From an uncultured Clostridia bacterium (GTDB lineage: Bacteria; Bacillota; Clostridia; Oscillospirales; Oscillospiraceae): a stretch of 55,970 bases of DNA. The stretch covers positions 1 through 55,970 of the forward strand of contig CAMHMK010000002.1 in assembly GCA_946186225.1 (NCBI GenBank), in the 5' to 3' direction. Both the position numbers and the translations under genes were made by a program. The notes under the pieces are model-generated. The model saw nothing but the letters and a program-made list of their open reading frames with translations, ran no database searches and was not told where the DNA came from. This document shows, one piece after another, positions 43,980 to 55,429 of this stretch. Within the stretch, counting starts at the first letter, position 1; every line of letters begins with the position of its first letter.

Positions 43980-45752
43980 TCAGTCCAACAGGTATTTCAC
44001 ATAGCGCTCGGCCATGGCGTGCCAGAGATCGCGGGCCTCAGGCATCGGAGTGCCGCACGCCTCACGGTAGAGGGCCCAGACGAACCAATAGTAGGCAATG
44101 ATGGCAGTATAGGCCAGGAAGTGGAAGCGTTTTTGTTGGTCTGTCTCCTCGCCGAGATAGGCGTCAATGAAGCGGAGGGCCGTCTCCGGCTCATAGGCAG
44201 CATCCACGATGTAGTAGCCGACGTCGATGCCCGGGTCGGAAAAGCCCGCGTACTCCCAATCGATCAGGATCGTACCGCCGTCGGGGAGCAGCATCCAGTT
44301 GTGGCAATAGGTATCCCCGTGGCAGAAGCAGGGGGCCACGCCATCGCCGGCTGTTTTTTCGCAGAGGGTCCGTATTCCGGCCTTCAGGGAGAGATAGGGA
44401 GCAAAGCAGCCTGGCGTCTTCTGCTCCAGGGCAGTTTCGATCTGTTCCGCGTCCTCCCAAGGCTTCAGACCGTAGTCCGTTTGAACGGGAATGCGGTGCA
44501 GCTCCCGCAGCACCTGCAGAATCCGAAGAGAATCCGCCTCGCTGCGGTAATCCGGCTCCCGGAAGGCAGGCACGAAGCGGGAAATCTTCCAGCCTTCGCG
44601 CTCGTCCATGTAGACGAAGGTGGGGTCGAAGCCCCATTTCCGGGCAAGCTCCAGGGACTGCTTCTCGTGCACCCGGCTGACCAGCAGCTCTGTGCCCGCG
44701 CCGGGATGGCGGTAGATATAGTCCTCGTCCCGGTAGCGGAAGATAAAGGAGGTGTTGGTCAGGCCTTCGCTGATCTTGCGGAAGGAGTGGATTTCGGCCT
44801 CGTCGCAGTGAAAGACGGAGATGATGTTGCCGACGATGCGGCTGTGGGTATGCTTGACGTAGGCACTGTCAAAGCGGCGCAGGTCATCAAAGTAGTCGAA
44901 CTCCACAATGGCCCGGGCCGCGAATCGCTTGTAATACATCGGAGGCAGGCGGTCCAGATTTGCCTGCACCACCCATTCCCAATAGGCGTCCTCCCGTTCC
45001 AGGTCCGGATTCTCGTCAATCAGGCGGAGGAAGGTCTCTGCAAAATCCCGGGACCAGAAGCTATGGCCCAGGACCACCTGACCGCCGGAGCGGCCCTTTT
45101 CCATGCATATGATGCGCCCGTCACTGTCGGTATCCACATACATTTCGGGACTCGGCCCGTCCACGCGGACGCCCGCGTAGAAGGATCGGTACTCGAAGCT
45201 GTGGAAGGGATTTTCAGCAAAATAGTCGTCGCAGGCGCAGACATAGGCGTCCGCCAGCCGTTCCCGCGCGCAGCGGAGGCTGCGGATATTGTTGCAGGTC
45301 ATAAAATCCGGATTGGAGATCAGCTGAACGCCGGGCACCTCCGAGAGATAGGCAAACATCTCCTGCTTATAACCGACCACCACGGTAATATCCTCGATCC
45401 CAGCCTCCCGAAGCTGGGCGATTTGCCGGTCGATCAGGCACTCGCCCTTGACGCGGAACAGACCTTTGGGCAGTTCCAGCGAGAGCGGGATACAGCGGGT
45501 GGAAGGGCCGGCGGCAAGAATCACGGCCCGCTGCACGCGATATGGCGCGAGCGCGGCCATGCCGGCGGGCGTGATGCGCCGGAACTGAGACTCCACAAGC
45601 CCCGCATCAATCAGTGCATTCAGCACCTCCGGCCGCTCGCTCACGCGGTTCAGCTCTACGTCCGAGAAGGATGGCGCTCTGCCCCGCGATTCGTCATAGA
45701 AGGCGTTGAGCAGGGCGAAGGTTTCCGGGGTCAGCACGGTCTTCATCGGCAC
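43980..45752 (-). CDS. winged-helix / nucleotidyltransferase (LicC-like) / choline kinase-like (LicA/APH) fusion
   Basis: YRVQRAVILAAGPSTRCIPLSLELPKGLFRVKGECLIDRQIAQL (NTase); APCFCHGDTYCHNWMLLPDGGTILIDWEYAGFSDPGIDVGYYIVDA (kinase). Confidence 0.88.
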   Translation of the reverse strand: MPMKTVLTPETFALLNAFYDESRGRAPSFSDVELNRVSERPEVLNALIDAGLVESQFRRITPAGMAALAPYRVQRAVILAAGPSTRCIPLSLELPKGLFRVKGECLIDRQIAQLREAGIEDITVVVGYKQEMFAYLSEVPGVQLISNPDFMTCNNIRSLRCARERLADAYVCACDDYFAENPFHSFEYRSFYAGVRVDGPSPEMYVDTDSDGRIICMEKGRSGGQVVLGHSFWSRDFAETFLRLIDENPDLEREDAYWEWVVQANLDRLPPMYYKRFAARAIVEFDYFDDLRRFDSAYVKHTHSRIVGNIISVFHCDEAEIHSFRKISEGLTNTSFIFRYRDEDYIYRHPGAGTELLVSRVHEKQSLELARKWGFDPTFVYMDEREGWKISRFVPAFREPDYRSEADSLRILQVLRELHRIPVQTDYGLKPWEDAEQIETALEQKTPGCFAPYLSLKAGIRTLCEKTAGDGVAPCFCHGDTYCHNWMLLPDGGTILIDWEYAGFSDPGIDVGYYIVDAAYEPETALRFIDAYLGEETDQQKRFHFLAYTAIIAYYWFVWALYREACGTPMPEARDLWHAMAERYVKYLLD

Positions 45753-45756
45753 ACCC

Positions 45757-47328
45757 TCACGCCTTGGCCCGCGAAAACAGGCCGCGCAGCATGCTCCCCG
45801 CCACGCCGCCGCGGCAGCTTTGATAAGGCTGGCCGCCCAGAAGGAGCTGCTCTACGCGGAGCTCGCGCAGACGGTGCAGTTCCATCTTGCAGGGGTTTTC
45901 GGAGAGAATAACCATGTCCGCGATCTTTCCGACCTCCAGGCTTCCCCGCTCGGCATCGTCAAAGGTCGCGCGGCAGCCGTTGATCGTACACATGCGCAGG
46001 GCCTCCTGTACGGTCAAGGCCTGGGCGGGATTGGCGTGGTTGACGGCCTTGTCGATCCAGTCGATCGGATTGGGGGCAGTACAGGGGGCGTCGGAGCCCG
46101 CGGCGATGGAGATGCCCAGATCCCAGAAGGTACGCAGCGGATTGAGGGCCGATGCGCGGTCCTTGCCGAGGATCTGCTCCAGATATTCGTCCGGTTCCTG
46201 CTTCCAGTTGATGAAGGCGCTCTGCACAGGGAGCTGGATGCCGTAGTCCCGGCAGATCTCCAGGCCGGCCACGGTGGGCAGACAGGCATGGATGATGCCG
46301 TGACGGTGGTCCTTACGCGGGAAGTCATCCAGGGCGGCGCGCAACGCGCGGGTCGCCTGGTCAAAGGCACGGTCGCCGATGGCGTGCATCTCGATCTGCA
46401 GGCCGGCGCGGTTGGCCTTCTTGCAGAACTCAATCACCTTTTCATCGGAATAATAGAGTACGCCGTCTGTGCCGTCGTCAACATAGGGGGCGTTCATAGC
46501 CGCGTCATGGGAGCCAAAGCAGCCGTCCAGGGCGCAGGCAAAGCAGCCGCCGATGCGGGGCAGCTTCCGGCGCGTGGCAGCGCGAACGTCCAGAGACTGG
46601 GGGAAAACGCGGATCTGGAAGCCGTTTTTCAAGGAGCGGGCAAAGAGCTGCTCCAGGGTGATATCCAGGTTTGCCACGAAGCCGATGCCGCTGACCGTAT
46701 GGACCATACCGATGCCCCGGGATGCCTCGAAGTCCACGGCGTTCTGCAGATTTTTCACCAGGTCCACCAGAGAAAGTGAGCCCGTGATGTAGTCAGAGAC
46801 CTTGAAGAAAGCCTCCTGGTTCATCTCGCCCGTATCGGGGTGATAGCCGCGCAGAGGAGATAGCTTCTTTTCCAGCTTCTTGAGCAGAGGCGTATTGACA
46901 ATGCAGGCGTGGCCGTCATACTTGACCATCATCATCTCGCGGTCGGGGCAGACGGCGTCCAGCTCGGCGCGAGAGAGCAGCTTGCCCTCCCGGACCGAAT
47001 AAGGGGATGCGCCAAAGGCGATCAGGGTCTTGGCCGTGGAGCGGCGGACAAAGTCGCGGATCATATCCGAGATCTCGCGGTTGGAGGCCGCGTCCATGAC
47101 ATTCAGACCGGCATGGAAGGCGGAGAAGGATGCCAGGTGCTGGTGGGTGTCCACAAAGCTTGGGCAGAGGGCCTTTGCACCGAGCTCTACCTTCGGGGCA
47201 GCTTGGAATCGCTCCGGCAGCTCATTGCCGACGAAGATGATCTTGCCCTCATCTTCGACCAGCCAGCGGAACGTCTCATCCGAGGCGTTGACGGAAAGGA
47301 TATCGCCGTGATAGCATTTCATACTCAT
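45757..47328 (-). CDS. amidohydrolase family protein (YtcJ-like)
   Basis: KALCPSFVDTHQHLASFSAFHAGLN; HAIGDRAFDQATRALRA; IAAGSDAPCTAPNPIDWIDKAVNHANP; GKIADMVILSENP. Start 47328 (or 47322) after GGAGG rather than the longer ORF. Confidence 0.87.
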   Translation of the reverse strand: MSMKCYHGDILSVNASDETFRWLVEDEGKIIFVGNELPERFQAAPKVELGAKALCPSFVDTHQHLASFSAFHAGLNVMDAASNREISDMIRDFVRRSTAKTLIAFGASPYSVREGKLLSRAELDAVCPDREMMMVKYDGHACIVNTPLLKKLEKKLSPLRGYHPDTGEMNQEAFFKVSDYITGSLSLVDLVKNLQNAVDFEASRGIGMVHTVSGIGFVANLDITLEQLFARSLKNGFQIRVFPQSLDVRAATRRKLPRIGGCFACALDGCFGSHDAAMNAPYVDDGTDGVLYYSDEKVIEFCKKANRAGLQIEMHAIGDRAFDQATRALRAALDDFPRKDHRHGIIHACLPTVAGLEICRDYGIQLPVQSAFINWKQEPDEYLEQILGKDRASALNPLRTFWDLGISIAAGSDAPCTAPNPIDWIDKAVNHANPAQALTVQEALRMCTINGCRATFDDAERGSLEVGKIADMVILSENPCKMELHRLRELRVEQLLLGGQPYQSCRGGVAGSMLRGLFSRAKA

Positions 47329-48257
47329 ACCTCCGATTTTGAAGAACGGTAGTTTTCGTAAGAGGGATCCAGCTCCACGAGCTCGAAGAAATTGTCGATC
47401 TCCATGATATCGGACTTGGCGCATGGGCGGATCTCCACGCGGTATCGGTCCCGATAGAGGACCAGGGGAATGAATTCCCAGAAGAGGTCCTTCCCTTCCG
47501 GCTCGGTCTCATAGGCGCGGCGGAAATCTGCGCGCAGCTTCGCACTGTCGGCCCGGTCCCAATAGGCAATTTCATACTGATTGAAGCAGTAGACGCCGCC
47601 CTTCTGATAGTGACCGGTGAAGCCGTTTTCGAAGGTGAAGCACCAGTCGTCGGTCTCCTCGGCATAGGAGGCCAGGTAGTTGGTCCGATAGTGGTACTTG
47701 TGGATGACCTTGGGATTCGTTACCAGCAGATCCCCGGCGCAGATATAGCAGTTGTCAATCTTCTCCCCTGCCGCCAGGGCCGAAGAAATGTTGTTTTCAG
47801 TCTCGTAGGCGTCGTTATCCCGGAACTGCAGGAAGGGATATTTTTCCAGCAGGACGTCAAAGTCCGCCTTGCGATAGCCGCGCACGATCGTGATATCCCG
47901 GATGTCTCTGGCGATCAGGGCGTCAAGAAGACGGTCGATGATGCGCACGCCGTTCACCCGAACCAAGGGCTTTGGCGTATCAAGCGTGACCGGGGCCATC
48001 CGCGATCCGAAGCCTGCGGCAAAGATGACGGCCCGCTCCACCCGATAGGGCTCCAGGGCCGCCAGCCCTGCGGCTGTGATGCGCAGCTCATCGCCGGATG
48101 CCTCCAGAAGTCCGCGCTCGGTCAACGAGGTGCGGACCCGGATGATCTGCGTGCCGGACAGAGCCAGGGCGTCGGTCAGACTTCGCCAAGGATACACGCC
48201 GGGGCCGTTTTCGGCCACATGCGCCAGCAGATCAAATTCATATCGAGAAAGCTCCAT
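47325..48257 (-). CDS. winged-helix-fused nucleotidyltransferase (LicC-like)
   Basis: YRVERAVIFAAGFGSRMAPVTLDTPKPLVRVNGVRIIDRLLDAL; N-terminal winged-helix-like region ending LRITAAGLAALEP. Confidence 0.88.
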   Translation of the reverse strand: MELSRYEFDLLAHVAENGPGVYPWRSLTDALALSGTQIIRVRTSLTERGLLEASGDELRITAAGLAALEPYRVERAVIFAAGFGSRMAPVTLDTPKPLVRVNGVRIIDRLLDALIARDIRDITIVRGYRKADFDVLLEKYPFLQFRDNDAYETENNISSALAAGEKIDNCYICAGDLLVTNPKVIHKYHYRTNYLASYAEETDDWCFTFENGFTGHYQKGGVYCFNQYEIAYWDRADSAKLRADFRRAYETEPEGKDLFWEFIPLVLYRDRYRVEIRPCAKSDIMEIDNFFELVELDPSYENYRSSKSEV

Positions 48258-48284: not shown

Positions 48285-49532
48285 TTAGTTGTTCTCTTGC
48301 GGCTGCTCCTGCTCCAATTCGCGCAGCTTCTCCATAAGATAGTCCGCAGCGCGGACGGCGCCTTCTCCGGGGTGCATCCAGACCTCCTCGCGGGCACGGT
48401 CGCGTGCCTTCTGATAGGCAGGATTGTCCCGCAGATCGTCGATGGACTCCTTGATCCGGTCCAACATCCCCTCATCCAGGCACTTGCCGATGCGGGGCAG
48501 GGTCTCCAGCGTCCAGAGCTCGTCCTTGAGCCAGTAGGAGTCGTAAGGGCCCTTGTCAAATTTGGCGTTGTGATAGATGACAGGCTTGTCAAAGACCAGC
48601 GCGTAATCGAAGATTACGCCTGAGAAGTCGGAGATCATCACGTCGGAGCTGCGCAGCACGTCGAAGTTGTCCGTGTCGCGGTTCCATGAGAAACGGTCGG
48701 TATCAGGAAATTGCTTCATCAGGCGGTCGATCATCTCCGTCTCTGACTGGAAGGACTGGGGATGCGGACGAACGACGACGCGGTAACCGGTGTCGATCAG
48801 CGCCTGGAGAATGCGCTCGCCGTAAAGGCTCAGGAGGGCACTCTTGCCCCAGGAGGGAGCGAGCAGGACCGTGAACTCGTGCTGCGGCAGGGCCGGAGCC
48901 TCGGCCAGCCGCTTGCGCATGACGTCCAGATAGGGAATGCCGACGTAGCAAACCTCCTTGGCCGGAAGATTTCGCTGGCCCTCCAGGTCCCGGAGCTGAT
49001 CCTCCTGGAATTTGCCGGACAGGAGCAGGGCGTCGTAGTAGTCGACGCCGAACATCCGGTATCCGGCCAGGTTTCCGGCAGCATGGAGGATGTGGACGTA
49101 CCAGCGCACGTCCTTGGAGCGCTTCCACTGATAGACGTCCAGGCCGGGCGTCGTGGAAAGCAGGATGTCGGTGTGCAGGACGTTGAGCACGGCAAAGGCC
49201 TTGTCCCCCTTGCCGATGAACTCGGCATGGACGTGCGGAAGGTCTGCCTTCAGGGCGGGGTCGTCCTCCGAGGCCGTCAGATAGGAGACGTCCTGGCCGC
49301 GGGCATTCAGCTCCCGGCAGATCGGGGAAAAGACGTTCCAGTAGCGCTTGTCATCCGAGAAGATCGTGAGCGCAGCCTTCTGCTCGGCCTTGGCCTTGCC
49401 GCCTGCAGCACGGAAGCGCAGCTTCATCCACAGGGCACGCGCAGCGTAGATGCCTGCGCCGAATACGCCCATCAGGACCGTAAACAGCATGCTGCCCGTG
49501 CCGGGATCGATATATAAAAACGTTGGATACAT
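48285..49532 (-). CDS. CDP-glycerol:glycerophosphate glycerophosphotransferase (TagB/TagF type)
   Basis: YHILHAAGNLAGYRMFGVDYYDALLLSG-type region; VLLAPSWGKSALLSLYGERIL; VVRPHPQSF; SDVMISDFSGVIFDYALVFDKPVIY. ATG 49532. Confidence 0.86.
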   Translation of the reverse strand: MYPTFLYIDPGTGSMLFTVLMGVFGAGIYAARALWMKLRFRAAGGKAKAEQKAALTIFSDDKRYWNVFSPICRELNARGQDVSYLTASEDDPALKADLPHVHAEFIGKGDKAFAVLNVLHTDILLSTTPGLDVYQWKRSKDVRWYVHILHAAGNLAGYRMFGVDYYDALLLSGKFQEDQLRDLEGQRNLPAKEVCYVGIPYLDVMRKRLAEAPALPQHEFTVLLAPSWGKSALLSLYGERILQALIDTGYRVVVRPHPQSFQSETEMIDRLMKQFPDTDRFSWNRDTDNFDVLRSSDVMISDFSGVIFDYALVFDKPVIYHNAKFDKGPYDSYWLKDELWTLETLPRIGKCLDEGMLDRIKESIDDLRDNPAYQKARDRAREEVWMHPGEGAVRAADYLMEKLRELEQEQPQENN

Positions 49533-49558: not shown

Positions 49559-52333
49559 TTAGCGATAGCCGATGTATTCCCAGTTTTCTCCCACGCGGAC
49601 GTCGTCGTGGACGGAGAACCACTTGCAGGGCAGGAAGGCAACGCCGTTGTTCTTTGCAACATTCCAGTTGTAGGAATAGGTCGCGTGCTGCTCCGGCGCG
49701 TACTTCATCTCATCGGTGATCGGCTTTCCGGTGAATGGGTTCACCGGGTTCTCGATCAGGCCGGAGAAGGCGATTGTCGGCGTGTCGGCGTTCGTCATGA
49801 AGCGCTCATCCACGGTAAAGCCCTTGCTGTTGAAGTCCTTTACCATCAGCATGCACTGGAGCATCATCATGTCCTCGACGTCCTTGTCGTCATCCACGTC
49901 ATGCAGCAGGTCCCGGAAGAATTGCAGATACCAGCCGTGGTCGGAAACGATGATGATGCGCGTATTGTCGTAGAGATCGTTCTCGCGCAGATAGTCGAAC
50001 CATTCTCCCAGCGCAAGGAAGGCCGCCATATTCGCATGATAGTGCGTTACCTGCATCTCGTTGCTCAGATAGAGGGTGCTGCCGTCGGCCGCGGTGCGGG
50101 GATTGTGCGCGGCTTCATAGTCGGTATCGTCCACATAGGCGGCGGGAACATAGTCCGGCTCCTGCAGGAGGACCGGGCGGTGCGGAAGCTCGTTGTCCAT
50201 GGCGAAGAAGGTGTTGCCCGAGGATTCGATCCGCGTGATTGAAGGAAGGTTCTTGAGCACCATGTAATTGTTCATGAAGCCCTTGTCAAATCCGGAGGCC
50301 GTGTAATCGGAGAGCATCGTCTGAACGGAGGTATCCGCCTCCTCCTGGACGGCCGCGGCGTCGGCCCTGTTGTAGTTGCCGTTGTCATAGAGCGTCTTCT
50401 GCAGGATCAGAGGTGCCGACTTGAAGAGGCTGTAGCAGAAGAAGTTTCGGTTCAGGAGGAAGTCTGTATCCTCCTGGGATCTGGTGCCGCGGTTGAATCT
50501 GCCGTCCTTGGCAAAGTAGGTGTGCATCCCGGGGTAATCGTCAAAGATGCTGTAGTCGGAGGGCTTTTTGTAGCCGCAATAGGGCAGGTCGCAGATCGTG
50601 ACCTCGTAGCCCGCATGGTAGAACAGGTCCGGCATCAGCTTCATCGACTCGTCGTGCTTTTCCTGGAGGAGCTGATCGGTTCTGGCGTTCATCTCTTCCG
50701 GCGTGTACTCATAGCCGCCGAAGACGCCGGTCACGCCGAAATTCGTGCATACGCCGTAGCTCATCGAGTTCGGGTAGTAGGTAAAGCCGTCAAAGGCTTC
50801 CTTGAGCTCCGGCTTTTCGTTCATCATGTAGGGGACCATGGAGGCAACTGCGCGATCCATCATCAGGACGACCACATTTTTGCCGGTCTTGCTCAGGCGG
50901 ATCTGAAGCTGCTCATCCGTCCGTTCCATCTGCGTCCGGATGGCGGAATACTCTTTTTGGATCCCGAACACATTGGTAACCGACATTCCAAAGGCAGCAA
51001 AGCAGAGTGCGCCGACCAAAAGGCGTAGCATCGCCTGCTTTTTCTTCCAGATCACATAGAGCAGGGCGGTCAAGGCCAGAAGGACACCTGCATTGAGGAA
51101 CATCTGACCGACGGTGTTCTTGGGATGGACGTCAAAGCGAAGCATCTCGGAGAGGTTGCCGTAGCCGGTGCCGAAGAAGAGATAGTCCACGGCAGCGCCA
51201 ACAGCCAGGGCAGAGATTGCAAGGCCTAAGATGCGCTTGCCCCTGCCGTCTGCCAGGTGATAAAAAATCTCGAACCAGACCAGGAAGGTACCCGCCGCCA
51301 ACAGCGCAGAATTCAGCAAATAATTCAGCGGAGAACGGGGCGCCAGATTGTCAACGAATTCCGAGGTGGAATCCCGGATGACGCCGGACGGGATCAGCAG
51401 GCCGGTCAGGATCATCAGGAGAAGGCAGCCCAGGAAGAAGCCAAAGCGTTCCGGCTTTTCGACCCGAACGGCGGGACGGGCAGCGCGGGTTTTGGCGCGG
51501 AGGGCCAGGAGCAGCGGCAGCTGCAGAGCCAGCAGGATCAGCGTCAGGAAGAACTTCATCCTCGCTGTCTCCACAGTGTGGAAGAAGAGGAAATAAACTG
51601 CCCCAAAAACGCTGACGGCAGAGAAGATAATTCCCAGCACCAGTCCGGGCCGCTTCATCTTGTAGAAGACGTTTTTCAGCAGGGAGAACAGGTTGTTGAG
51701 GGTCCAGTAGAAAACGAGACCTGCCGGGGAATTATAGAGCAGGACAAGGAACACCACGGCCAGGCCGTAGGTCTGGAGCTTGCTCTTGAGGGGGAAGCCC
51801 CGCATGTAGATGGACGCGGAGATATAGTTGATGGCCGTCATCAGAATGGGCAGAAGATTCAGCGTAAGGCCGAAGATCTTCAGCATTCCGTCCGGCGCGC
51901 CCATGTCGGCGATCGGTCCGAAGCTCATGCCGCGCAGCAGCTGGAGGCCGGAAAGGAACCGATAAGCCGCAGTGAAGAAGGGTACCTGTAAAAGCAGAGA
52001 GATCGAGCCCTTGAAGACATCCGTCTGCTTGTAGTCGTTCTGACGGTAGTAGGTCTGGAGCATCATGAAGCGCTCGTTGCCCTTGAAGGTCTTCTTGATA
52101 TGGGCGACGCCATCCTGCATTTGCGCAGCCTTGTCGCGCTGTTCCCGCTGCAGGGCGTCTGCGCGGCGATAGAGCGGCAAAACCAGGAAATTGATGGCCA
52201 GGCTCAGAAAAATAATGGCAATTCCGTGGTTGCCGACCAGGCGGTCTGCAATTGCGAAGATTACCTCAAACATCAGCTCCAGCGGCCCAATCAGCAGCTT
52301 GTAGAGCGCGGTTCCGAGAGACAAGTGAATCAT
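49559..52333 (-). CDS. YidC/Oxa1-type membrane insertase domain fused to an alkaline-phosphatase-superfamily (sulfatase/phosphoglycerol transferase-like) domain
   Basis: N-terminus: GNHGIAIIFLSLAINFLVLPLYRRADALQREQRDKAAQMQDGVAHIKKTFKGNERFMMLQTYYRQNDYKQ...LLQVPFFTAAYRFL (Oxa1); C-terminus: GKNVVVLMMDRAVASMVPYMM...TRIIIVSDHGWYLQFFRDL (sulfatase fold). ATG 52333 fits the promoter position. Confidence 0.88.
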   Translation of the reverse strand: MIHLSLGTALYKLLIGPLELMFEVIFAIADRLVGNHGIAIIFLSLAINFLVLPLYRRADALQREQRDKAAQMQDGVAHIKKTFKGNERFMMLQTYYRQNDYKQTDVFKGSISLLLQVPFFTAAYRFLSGLQLLRGMSFGPIADMGAPDGMLKIFGLTLNLLPILMTAINYISASIYMRGFPLKSKLQTYGLAVVFLVLLYNSPAGLVFYWTLNNLFSLLKNVFYKMKRPGLVLGIIFSAVSVFGAVYFLFFHTVETARMKFFLTLILLALQLPLLLALRAKTRAARPAVRVEKPERFGFFLGCLLLMILTGLLIPSGVIRDSTSEFVDNLAPRSPLNYLLNSALLAAGTFLVWFEIFYHLADGRGKRILGLAISALAVGAAVDYLFFGTGYGNLSEMLRFDVHPKNTVGQMFLNAGVLLALTALLYVIWKKKQAMLRLLVGALCFAAFGMSVTNVFGIQKEYSAIRTQMERTDEQLQIRLSKTGKNVVVLMMDRAVASMVPYMMNEKPELKEAFDGFTYYPNSMSYGVCTNFGVTGVFGGYEYTPEEMNARTDQLLQEKHDESMKLMPDLFYHAGYEVTICDLPYCGYKKPSDYSIFDDYPGMHTYFAKDGRFNRGTRSQEDTDFLLNRNFFCYSLFKSAPLILQKTLYDNGNYNRADAAAVQEEADTSVQTMLSDYTASGFDKGFMNNYMVLKNLPSITRIESSGNTFFAMDNELPHRPVLLQEPDYVPAAYVDDTDYEAAHNPRTAADGSTLYLSNEMQVTHYHANMAAFLALGEWFDYLRENDLYDNTRIIIVSDHGWYLQFFRDLLHDVDDDKDVEDMMMLQCMLMVKDFNSKGFTVDERFMTNADTPTIAFSGLIENPVNPFTGKPITDEMKYAPEQHATYSYNWNVAKNNGVAFLPCKWFSVHDDVRVGENWEYIGYR

Positions 52334-52381
52334 CCTTTGCTTTTCCCATAACGGGTGTTTTTTAGAATTAACCAATAATGT

Positions 52382-52410: not shown

Positions 52411-52472
52411 GTCTGAAAACATGTTTGCGTGCCATTTCGCGTCAATGCTCTCTTGTTTTTTCATTTTTCCGG

Positions 52473-52501
52473 TTGAATCTCGTCGGCTGCCGTGATATAA
52501 T
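52473..52501 (+). promoter_or_regulatory. sigma70-type promoter for the nucleotidyltransferase-aminotransferase operon
   Basis: TTGAAT (52473-52478), 17-bp spacer, TATAAT (52496-52501). Confidence 0.7.
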
Positions 52502-52556
52502 CCAATCAATCTCTCTGCAGACGATTTCAATCATTATTCAGATACAGGTGAACGAT

Positions 52557-54362
52557 ATGCAAGCAGTTATCCTCGCCGCCGGTATGGGCAAACGCCTGAA
52601 GCATTTGACGGCAAACAATACCAAGTGTATGGTTAAGGTCAACGGGGTTCCGATGATCGATCGGATGCTCTCCCAGCTCGACAGCCACCATCTGTCCCGG
52701 ATCATCCTGGTTGTCGGATATGAGGGAGAGAAGCTCAAGGACCACGTCCGCAGCCTCTCCATCGAGACTCCGATCATTTTTATCGACAATCCGGTCTATG
52801 ACAGGACCAACAACATCTACTCCCTGGCGCTGGCCCGGGAGAACCTCTGCGCGGAGGACACCCTCCTGCTCGAATCCGATCTGATTTTTGAGGATTCGGT
52901 CCTGGATCTCCTTCTGGAGGATCCGCGTCCGAATCTGGCGCTGGTCGATAAGTATGAGAGCTGGATGGACGGAACCTGCGTCCTGCTGGACGAGGACGAC
53001 GGAATCGACTCCTTTGTTCCCAAGCAGAGCTTCCGATACGACGAGATCGCCAGCTATTATAAGACCGTCAACATCTATAAGTTCAGTCGGGAGTTCTCTC
53101 AGAAGCAGTATGTGCCGTTCCTTGAGGCATACGTCAAGGCGCTGGGCGAAAACGAATACTATGAGCAGGTGCTGCGCGTGATCACCATGCTCAACCACAC
53201 CTCCATCCGGGCCAGGCGCCTGTCCGGACAGCGCTGGTACGAGATCGATGACGTTCAGGACCTGGATATTGCTGAGTCCATCTTCACTGACAATATCTCT
53301 GCGCGCGCAGCCCGGCTCCAGGCTAGGTTCGGGGGCTACTGGCGTTACCCGGGGATGCTGGATTTCTGCTATCTGGTCAACCCATATTTCCCGCCCAAAC
53401 GGATGAGCGACGAGATCAAAGCCAGCTTCGAAACCCTGCTGACCCAGTATCCCTCCGGCATGCACATCAATTCCCTTCTGGCAGCCAAGGATTTTGGCCT
53501 GGCGGAGCGGAGCATTCTGGTGGGAAACGGCGCGGCAGAGCTGATCAAGTCCTTTATGGAGCGGCTCACCGGCAAGGTCGGAATCATTCGTCCGAGCTTT
53601 GAGGAGTATGGTCATCGCTATGAGAATCAGGTCGAATACCGACCGGAGAATCCCGACTTCTCCTACACTGCCGACGATGTCATTCAGTTCTTTTCCGTGC
53701 ATCCGGTCCAGAATCTGGTCCTGATCAATCCGGACAATCCAAGCGGAAACTATATCCCGAAGGAAGGAATACTCCGAATCGTCTCCTGGGCAAAGACGCA
53801 GACGATGACGCTTCTGGTGGACGAGAGCTTCGTGGACTTTGCCGACGAGGAGGACAGCAGTCTGCTCCATCAGACTCTGCTCGACCGGAATCCCCATCTG
53901 TTCGTAATGAAAAGTATCTCCAAGTCCTACGGCGTTCCCGGGCTGCGGCTCGGCATTTTGGCCTCCGGGGATGAAACTGCGATCGCGGAGATGAAAAAAG
54001 ACGTCTCGATCTGGAACATCAATTCCTTCGCTGAATTCTATCTGCAGATCGAGGAAAAATATCAGTCTGATTACCGGGCCGGCCTGATTCGCTTCCGTGC
54101 AGAGCGCGCCAGATTCGCCGCGAAGCTGGCTGAAATTCCCGGTCTGCGGGTGATTCCCTCCCAGGCAAACTATCTGATGGTGGAACTGACCAAGCCGGAG
54201 CAGAAGGCCAAGGACCTCCTGGCCTCCCTCCTGGCAAACTACAACCTGCTGGTCAAGGAGCTGACCGCAAAAACGGGCGGCCAATATCTCCGTTTCGCCG
54301 TTCGGGATACCAACGATAACGACCGCCTGCTGGCGGCATTGCGGAAGGAGCTTGCAATATGA
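52557..54362 (+). CDS. nucleotidyltransferase fused to a class I/II PLP-dependent aminotransferase (HisC-like)
   Basis: MQAVILAAGMGKRLKHLTANNTKCMVKVNGVPMIDRML; LVGNGAAELIKSFMERL, LVLINPDNPSGNYIPKE, LVDESFVDFADEE, SISKSYGVPGLRLGILAS. Confidence 0.9.
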   Translation: MQAVILAAGMGKRLKHLTANNTKCMVKVNGVPMIDRMLSQLDSHHLSRIILVVGYEGEKLKDHVRSLSIETPIIFIDNPVYDRTNNIYSLALARENLCAEDTLLLESDLIFEDSVLDLLLEDPRPNLALVDKYESWMDGTCVLLDEDDGIDSFVPKQSFRYDEIASYYKTVNIYKFSREFSQKQYVPFLEAYVKALGENEYYEQVLRVITMLNHTSIRARRLSGQRWYEIDDVQDLDIAESIFTDNISARAARLQARFGGYWRYPGMLDFCYLVNPYFPPKRMSDEIKASFETLLTQYPSGMHINSLLAAKDFGLAERSILVGNGAAELIKSFMERLTGKVGIIRPSFEEYGHRYENQVEYRPENPDFSYTADDVIQFFSVHPVQNLVLINPDNPSGNYIPKEGILRIVSWAKTQTMTLLVDESFVDFADEEDSSLLHQTLLDRNPHLFVMKSISKSYGVPGLRLGILASGDETAIAEMKKDVSIWNINSFAEFYLQIEEKYQSDYRAGLIRFRAERARFAAKLAEIPGLRVIPSQANYLMVELTKPEQKAKDLLASLLANYNLLVKELTAKTGGQYLRFAVRDTNDNDRLLAALRKELAI

Positions 54363-55429
54363 AAATCTGTGTGATCGGCGGCGGCAATATCGGTACGCTC
54401 TGCGCCTCAGAGCTGGCCGCCGGCGGCTGTGAGGTCGCCATGTACACCTCCCGCCCGGAAACCTGGTCGAGGATTCTTCGTGTTTACGATGCAGATGAAA
54501 ACCTGCTCCTGGAGACCGACCGCGTAAGGGCGACGGACGATTTGGCCGAGGCCGTCTCCGGCGCGACCCAGATCTGGATCACGCATCCCGCGTTTCTGTT
54601 TGAAGCCCTGGCAAAGCAGCTGCTGCCTCATGTCAGGGCAGGCCAGATGCTGCTGGTCATCCCCGGCAGCGGCGGCGCGGAGTTCTCCTTTCAGCCTCTG
54701 CTGGAAAAAGGCTTGATCCTCTGCGGTCTGCAGCGTGTCCACTGCATCGCCCGGTTGAAGAAAAAAGGCGAGAGCGTCTACGCTCTCGGACGAAAGCCGT
54801 CTCTGGCCCTCGGTGCGATCCCGGCCGGAGCAGCTCCCCTCTGGGCCGCGGAGATCGCGCGTCTGCTCAGTATTCCCTGCGAGGCCCTGCCCAATTACCT
54901 GTCTGTCACGCTGACGCCCTCCAACCCCATCCTGCACACTTCCCGCCTGTATTCCATGTTCCGCGATTACGTCCCAGGAATGGTCTGGGATCACAACATC
55001 CGTTTCTATGAGGAATGGACGGACGAGGCCAGCCGGATCATGCTGGCCTGTGACGCAGAGCTCCAAGCACTCTGCGAGCTTCTGCCGCTCGACCTGCAGG
55101 ACGTCAAGTCCCTGCGCGTACACTATGAGTCCGATACTGCTGAGAAGATGACCGCCAAGATCCGGGGGATCCGCGCCTTCCGCGGCATCACCAGTCCGAT
55201 GAAGCAAACCGAGGCGGGATGGATCCCTGATTTTGAATCCCGGTACTTCACGGCCGACTTCCCCTTTGGGCTGAAGATTATCCGTGACATCGGCTCGCTG
55301 GCCGGTGTTCCGATGCCGAACATCAACTGCCTCTGGGAGTGGTATGAGAAGACCGCACGTCTGCCGGGCGGCGCCAGTTTTCAGCTGCGGGAAGCATCCG
55401 TGGAGGCCCTGGTCAGGCTGTACGCATGA
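54359..55429 (+). CDS. NAD/NADP octopine/nopaline dehydrogenase family protein
   Basis: MKICVIGGGNIGTLCASELAAGGCEVAMYTSRP Rossmann motif; LSVTLTPSNPILHTSRLYSMF catalytic-type region; ATGA overlap with upstream gene. Confidence 0.87.
   Translation: MKICVIGGGNIGTLCASELAAGGCEVAMYTSRPETWSRILRVYDADENLLLETDRVRATDDLAEAVSGATQIWITHPAFLFEALAKQLLPHVRAGQMLLVIPGSGGAEFSFQPLLEKGLILCGLQRVHCIARLKKKGESVYALGRKPSLALGAIPAGAAPLWAAEIARLLSIPCEALPNYLSVTLTPSNPILHTSRLYSMFRDYVPGMVWDHNIRFYEEWTDEASRIMLACDAELQALCELLPLDLQDVKSLRVHYESDTAEKMTAKIRGIRAFRGITSPMKQTEAGWIPDFESRYFTADFPFGLKIIRDIGSLAGVPMPNINCLWEWYEKTARLPGGASFQLREASVEALVRLYA

Follow-up and report, generated by a model that had tools for sequence, protein, structure and literature searches.

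The 55,970-nucleotide stretch of an uncultured Oscillospiraceae bacterium analyzed here (the window) encodes a protein that joins a YidC-like membrane core, seven further transmembrane (TM) helices, and an alkaline-phosphatase-superfamily domain in a single polypeptide. We propose, with a probability of about 0.5, that this fused protein is not a general insertase but the membrane core of a dedicated system placing phospho- or phosphono-substituents of the aminoethylphosphonate (AEP), phosphoethanolamine, or phosphocholine type on a surface glycan or glycolipid, in which the YidC-like part docks a partner protein, C1, and flips a lipid-linked intermediate. Both parent folds are known, and the fused family is widespread but apparently undescribed: the open-access literature searched (most subscription journals lie outside it) yielded no description of a YidC-sulfatase fusion, of its unfused form, of a YidC with phosphonate clusters, or of the DPGTGS motif.

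The reading frame lies on the minus strand and is open from a TTG at 52375 to the stop at 49559. Judging from the sequence, TTG 52324 is the likelier start, since homologues begin at the residue that it encodes and an AAAGG stands 9 nt upstream; the alternative ATG 52333 abuts the ribosome-binding site. The resulting 921-residue protein (49559..52324) consists of a YidC/Oxa1-like domain (residues 1–225; 51650..52324), seven further predicted TM helices (residues ∼226–470; 50915..51649) located by a hydropathy scan and by the helices of the model, and a predicted extracytoplasmic phosphatase-superfamily domain (residues ∼471–921; 49562..50914). The AlphaFold2 model of the whole protein had a pLDDT of 82.5 and a pTM of 0.72. 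Pfam match coordinates below are numbered from the Met at 52333 and are 3 higher than the numbering of the TTG-start protein.

YidC/Oxa1 proteins are protein insertases, and the fused protein has their five-TM core with its cytoplasmic hairpin. Pfam 60KD_IMP (PF02096) matched residues 37–224 (E = 9e-22; 78 bits, cut-off 35), and the TIGR03592 profile (yidC_oxa1_cterm) narrowly missed its curated cut-off (81.7 against 84.3 bits). When residues 1–225 were modelled separately, Foldseek matched them to Bacillus halodurans YidC (3WO7, TM 0.72) and also to E. coli YidC (6AL2). Conservation peaks in the YidC half (mean pairwise identity 56%), falls to 39% in the sulfatase half, and is lowest, at 27%, in the TM part; within the YidC half it is high across the entire TM core, not on one surface only.

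At the position of the groove Arg or Lys, the fused protein carries N45. This position was uncharged and polar in all 60 distinct family sequences (Asn in 30, Thr in 19, Ser in 9, and Gln in 2) and was Lys or Arg in 29 of 32 other YidC proteins scored the same way; two of the remaining three read as Phe through an alignment offset, and one is an Asn. The protein with Asn is a seemingly canonical YidC from another Bacillota genome, G456 (L122:7212-8042). It is the sole YidC found in that genome, and its gene adjoins apparent dnaA, dnaN, and mnmE. The positive groove residue has been described as strictly conserved among YidC homologues; E. coli YidC carrying R366N and Y517W is nevertheless functional, and Streptococcus mutans YidC2 R73Q is inactive unless W234 is also made polar (PMC8920935). 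Loss of the groove charge is thus a clean trait of the fused-protein family but alone no proof of lost insertase activity, because some backgrounds tolerate its absence and others do not (PMC8920935) and because the G456 protein has Asn. As such a proof, we rejected it.

Pfam Sulfatase (PF00884) matched residues 485–803 with E = 2e-4 and 20.9 bits, below the gathering cut-off of 25. The whole-protein model matched phosphonate monoester hydrolase, MCR-1, PbgA/YejM, and LtaS in Foldseek. D490, T527, H715, D795, and H796 were invariant in 24 of 24 homologues. The likely nucleophile is T527 (in SYGVCT), with D795-H796 (in SDHG) completing the site and D490 as a probable metal ligand; this equivalence with the metal-ligand Asp/Glu, Thr nucleophile, and Asp-His pair was assigned by motif, not by coordinates. 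The earlier note had placed the nucleophile at the Ser of MMDRAVAS, a candidate displaced by the invariant T527. By TM count, an odd number of helices follows the C-in YidC core, which would put the enzyme domain outside.

C1, the near-obligate partner of the fused gene, is encoded on the same strand (48285..49532) and has one N-terminal TM helix with an LYIDPGTGSML leader and a Glyphos_transf domain (PF04464, E = 8e-13). It is the co-directional TagB/TagF-type neighbour picked out in the earlier note, and its co-occurrence with the fused gene is near-perfect. As a rule, the two genes are neighbours on the same strand, with either one first, and they often overlap by a few bases or have a few bases between them. 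The same 10 of 198 related genomes hold both. Among Spirochaetota, 40 genomes encode the YidC-like domain in fused or unfused form; C1 was present in 37 of these and in none of 158 others (E < 1e-40), being undetected in three carriers; carrier genomes are related and hence not independent, and they are patchily spread over several genera. DPGTGSML was invariant in the 19 complete C1 members aligned, and the leader as a whole is nearly invariant in two phyla. Possibly the YidC-like domain recognizes it as a docking signal.

The window also contains genes related to donor synthesis. On the minus strand are a LicC/PntC-like NTP transferase (47325..48257; PF12804, E = 5e-11) and a LicC-like NTP transferase fused to a choline-kinase-like APH domain, an arrangement of the LicCA type (43980..45752; PF12804, E = 7e-13; PF01636, E = 5e-16). 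An amidohydrolase gene (45757-47424) lies between these two, in the same place as in L004/L042. A divergent gene on the plus strand (52458..54362) joins, by profile matches, a LicC-like NTP transferase to a CobD-like phospho-amino-acid decarboxylase domain; this combination recurs in Treponema loci L010 and L012, and the gene product is predicted to function in CDP-ethanolamine-type donor synthesis. Directly after it comes an octopine-dehydrogenase-like gene (54359-55429). Of the 30 neighbourhood loci, among them several short or cut ones, 18 have LicC/PntC-like cytidylyltransferase genes. The fusion to a choline-kinase-like domain was found in the window, L004, L043, and L049, and the fusion to a CobD-like decarboxylase was found in the window, L010, L012, L015, L019, and L051. 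AEP genes (Ppm, Ppd, and AEP transaminase, AEPT) occurred in whole or in part in L008, L021, L104, L105, L108, L111, and L112, and L009 has Ppm and Ppd; none of the three was seen in the window. In Treponema denticola, PntC activates AEP with CTP, and the later steps were left open (PMC6697681).

Two Spirochaetota genomes (loci L104 and L105) have an unfused version, with stand-alone YidC-like proteins of 238 and 286 residues that carry the groove Asn. Gene order in L104 is ppm-ppd-pntC/AEPT-YidC-like-C1-TM/sulfatase, and L105 has a matching set. In both, C1 is followed by a separate TM protein of ∼600 residues; that of L104 matches Sulfatase with E = 1.5e-8, and the L105 copy is 55% identical to it. 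Since these proteins have no BLAST similarity to the fused sulfatase domain, it is the gene layout that is conserved, not sequence alone. A search for a fused-family sulfatase elsewhere in the two genomes found none.

A single scan across GTDB genomes yielded 19 loci, which belong to Oscillospiraceae, Lachnospiraceae, other Clostridiales, and Treponema/Spirochaetaceae; the fusion is found at full length in Oscillospiraceae and Lachnospiraceae of the rumen and in many Treponema. The fused gene was present in 10 of 198 relatives, in 3 of 399 genomes sampled from the phylum, and in about 38 of 198 Spirochaetota genomes (a count of strong matches, one of which is in pieces at the end of a contig). 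A single genome can hold as many as seven copies. Some Treponema loci hold three or four tandem or divergent fused copies with only one or two C1 genes (L010:1-10718, L012:2507-10736, and L017:2089-10730). A subfamily of ∼1000 residues (L107:5491-8481, L108:4038-7022, and L108:14982-17927) carries an insert of ∼90 residues after the YidC core, ahead of the next TM part. The copies in L109 and L110 (about 945 residues) adjoin a pyridine-nucleotide-disulphide oxidoreductase gene and are without surface-polymer neighbours. A canonical YidC was also found in 13 of the 14 carrier genomes examined, the exception being an assembly of only 1.6 Mb, and the window's own genome has a separate canonical YidC with Lys at the groove position. 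In a tree of either half, the Bacillota rows form one group and the same close pairs appear; deeper within Treponema the two trees branch differently. We rejected a phage or viral origin: the phage hits were YidC-like matches over 21% of the query, and no relative turned up on a viral contig.

The fusion of a YidC/Oxa1 core to a sulfatase-type domain, first noticed in the earlier note, is thus borne out by PF02096, by Foldseek, and by full-length homologues. The same note had suggested that the Oxa1 fold was repurposed for export or presentation of a surface polymer. Repurposing for a surface polymer holds up, given an architecture shared by two phyla, a housekeeping YidC alongside, the lost groove charge, the linkage to C1, and the unfused three-gene version in a phosphonate cluster. 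Export or presentation as such is a conjecture, and the clusters point to a nucleotide-activated phospho- or phosphono-substituent of the AEP, ethanolamine, or choline type more than to plain teichoic acid.

For the proposed system, we infer C1 docking, flipping, catalysis, and the exact donor and acceptor. In the cytoplasm, LicC/PntC-like enzymes would make a CMP- or CDP-activated donor, from which C1, anchored N-out by its DPGTGSML helix, would transfer the substituent to a lipid-linked acceptor at the inner face of the membrane. The YidC-like domain would hold C1 and pass the lipid-linked intermediate across the membrane via its uncharged polar groove, and the fused phosphatase-superfamily domain would perform onward transfer outside, using T527 and a bound metal. 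To our knowledge, in vitro lipid scrambling by YidC/Oxa1 proteins has no assigned role in a bacterial polymer pathway. The flipping step is proposed on the basis of that activity, as published for YidC, Oxa1, and their relatives (PMC10491306). More tentatively, the Oxa1 fold may have lost its groove charge and been taken over as a flippase dedicated to a lipid-linked phospho- or phosphono-glycan intermediate, coupling a cytoplasmic CDP-X/CMP-AEP transferase to an outer phosphatase-superfamily transferase in one polypeptide. If true, this would give the YidC superfamily a job other than protein insertion and would supply a missing late step of AEP, choline, and ethanolamine surface tailoring in treponemes and rumen Bacillota.

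Several observations count against the dedicated-system reading: the three Spirochaetota carriers that lack a detectable C1, the L109 and L110 copies without polymer neighbours, and the PF00884 score below its cut-off. In addition, the groove charge is not always needed, as E. coli R366N/Y517W and the G456 protein illustrate, so that insertase activity of the YidC-like domain is possible. The domain might accordingly be an active insertase dedicated to the N-out helix of C1 (Pf3-like, short-tailed, and with an acidic residue), and perhaps to the fused enzyme too, with no role in moving polymer intermediates. We consider this unlikely, although C1 does have a single N-terminal helix with the invariant DPGTGSML leader, and the Pf3 coat protein is the kind of single-helix client that YidC takes alone. 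Co-occurrence with C1 also persists where the sulfatase is unfused, and in E. coli proteins can be inserted even when the groove bears no positive charge (PMC8920935). Against it, the ordinary YidC of the carrier genomes could insert the C1 helix, and a leader invariant in sequence exceeds the needs of mere insertion.

Somewhat more doubtful still is a purely structural role, in which the YidC-like domain serves only to anchor C1 and the transferase, or as the platform on which they assemble, and is neither insertase nor flippase. Such a role would fit the lost groove charge, the tight tie to C1, and the occurrence of both fused and unfused versions, but the high conservation of the entire TM core suggests a working groove. 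The chance that the gene is an assembly error, a frameshift, or a chance fusion of two unrelated genes, the outcome that the earlier note said would undo its reading, is negligible, with no supporting point found, dozens of independent full-length homologues of 850–1010 residues in two phyla, and the same Bacillota group and close pairs given by both halves.

Under the dedicated-system reading, the data suggest that the YidC fold was put to a further use, building or decorating the cell surface. With a family that has kept the fold, has lost the groove charge, and is linked to genes for surface phospho-substituents, a polymer role of scrambling can be tested directly. The same family supplies candidates for what follows CMP-AEP synthesis in Treponema and rumen Bacillota, steps that Rice et al. 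left open (PMC6697681).

We compared the fused protein and C1 with known systems. Like the YidC/Oxa1/Alb3 insertases, of which B. halodurans YidC2 (3WO7; TM 0.72) is an example, the fused protein has the five-TM core and the Pfam 60KD_IMP domain; unlike them, its family has Asn, Thr, Ser, or Gln at the groove (60/60), seven TM helices and an enzyme attached, and an ordinary YidC alongside. With LtaS, EptA-MCR, and PbgA, it shares a TM region followed by an outward alkaline-phosphatase-fold domain and a matching motif (D490, T527, and D795-H796), but it has a YidC core plus seven TM helices in front, and its sequence match is below the Pfam cut-off. The loci resemble the Lic and Pnt pathways of phosphocholine and AEP tailoring in their LicC/PntC-like cytidylyltransferases and, in several loci other than the window's, in all or part of the Ppm, Ppd, and AEPT set. 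They differ in that no LicD-type phosphotransferase was seen among the neighbour proteins scanned, and C1 and the YidC-sulfatase may stand in its place. Finally, C1 matches PF04464 as the TagB/TagF glycerophosphotransferases do, whereas its invariant DPGTGSML membrane leader and its position beside choline, ethanolamine, and AEP activation genes set it apart from them.
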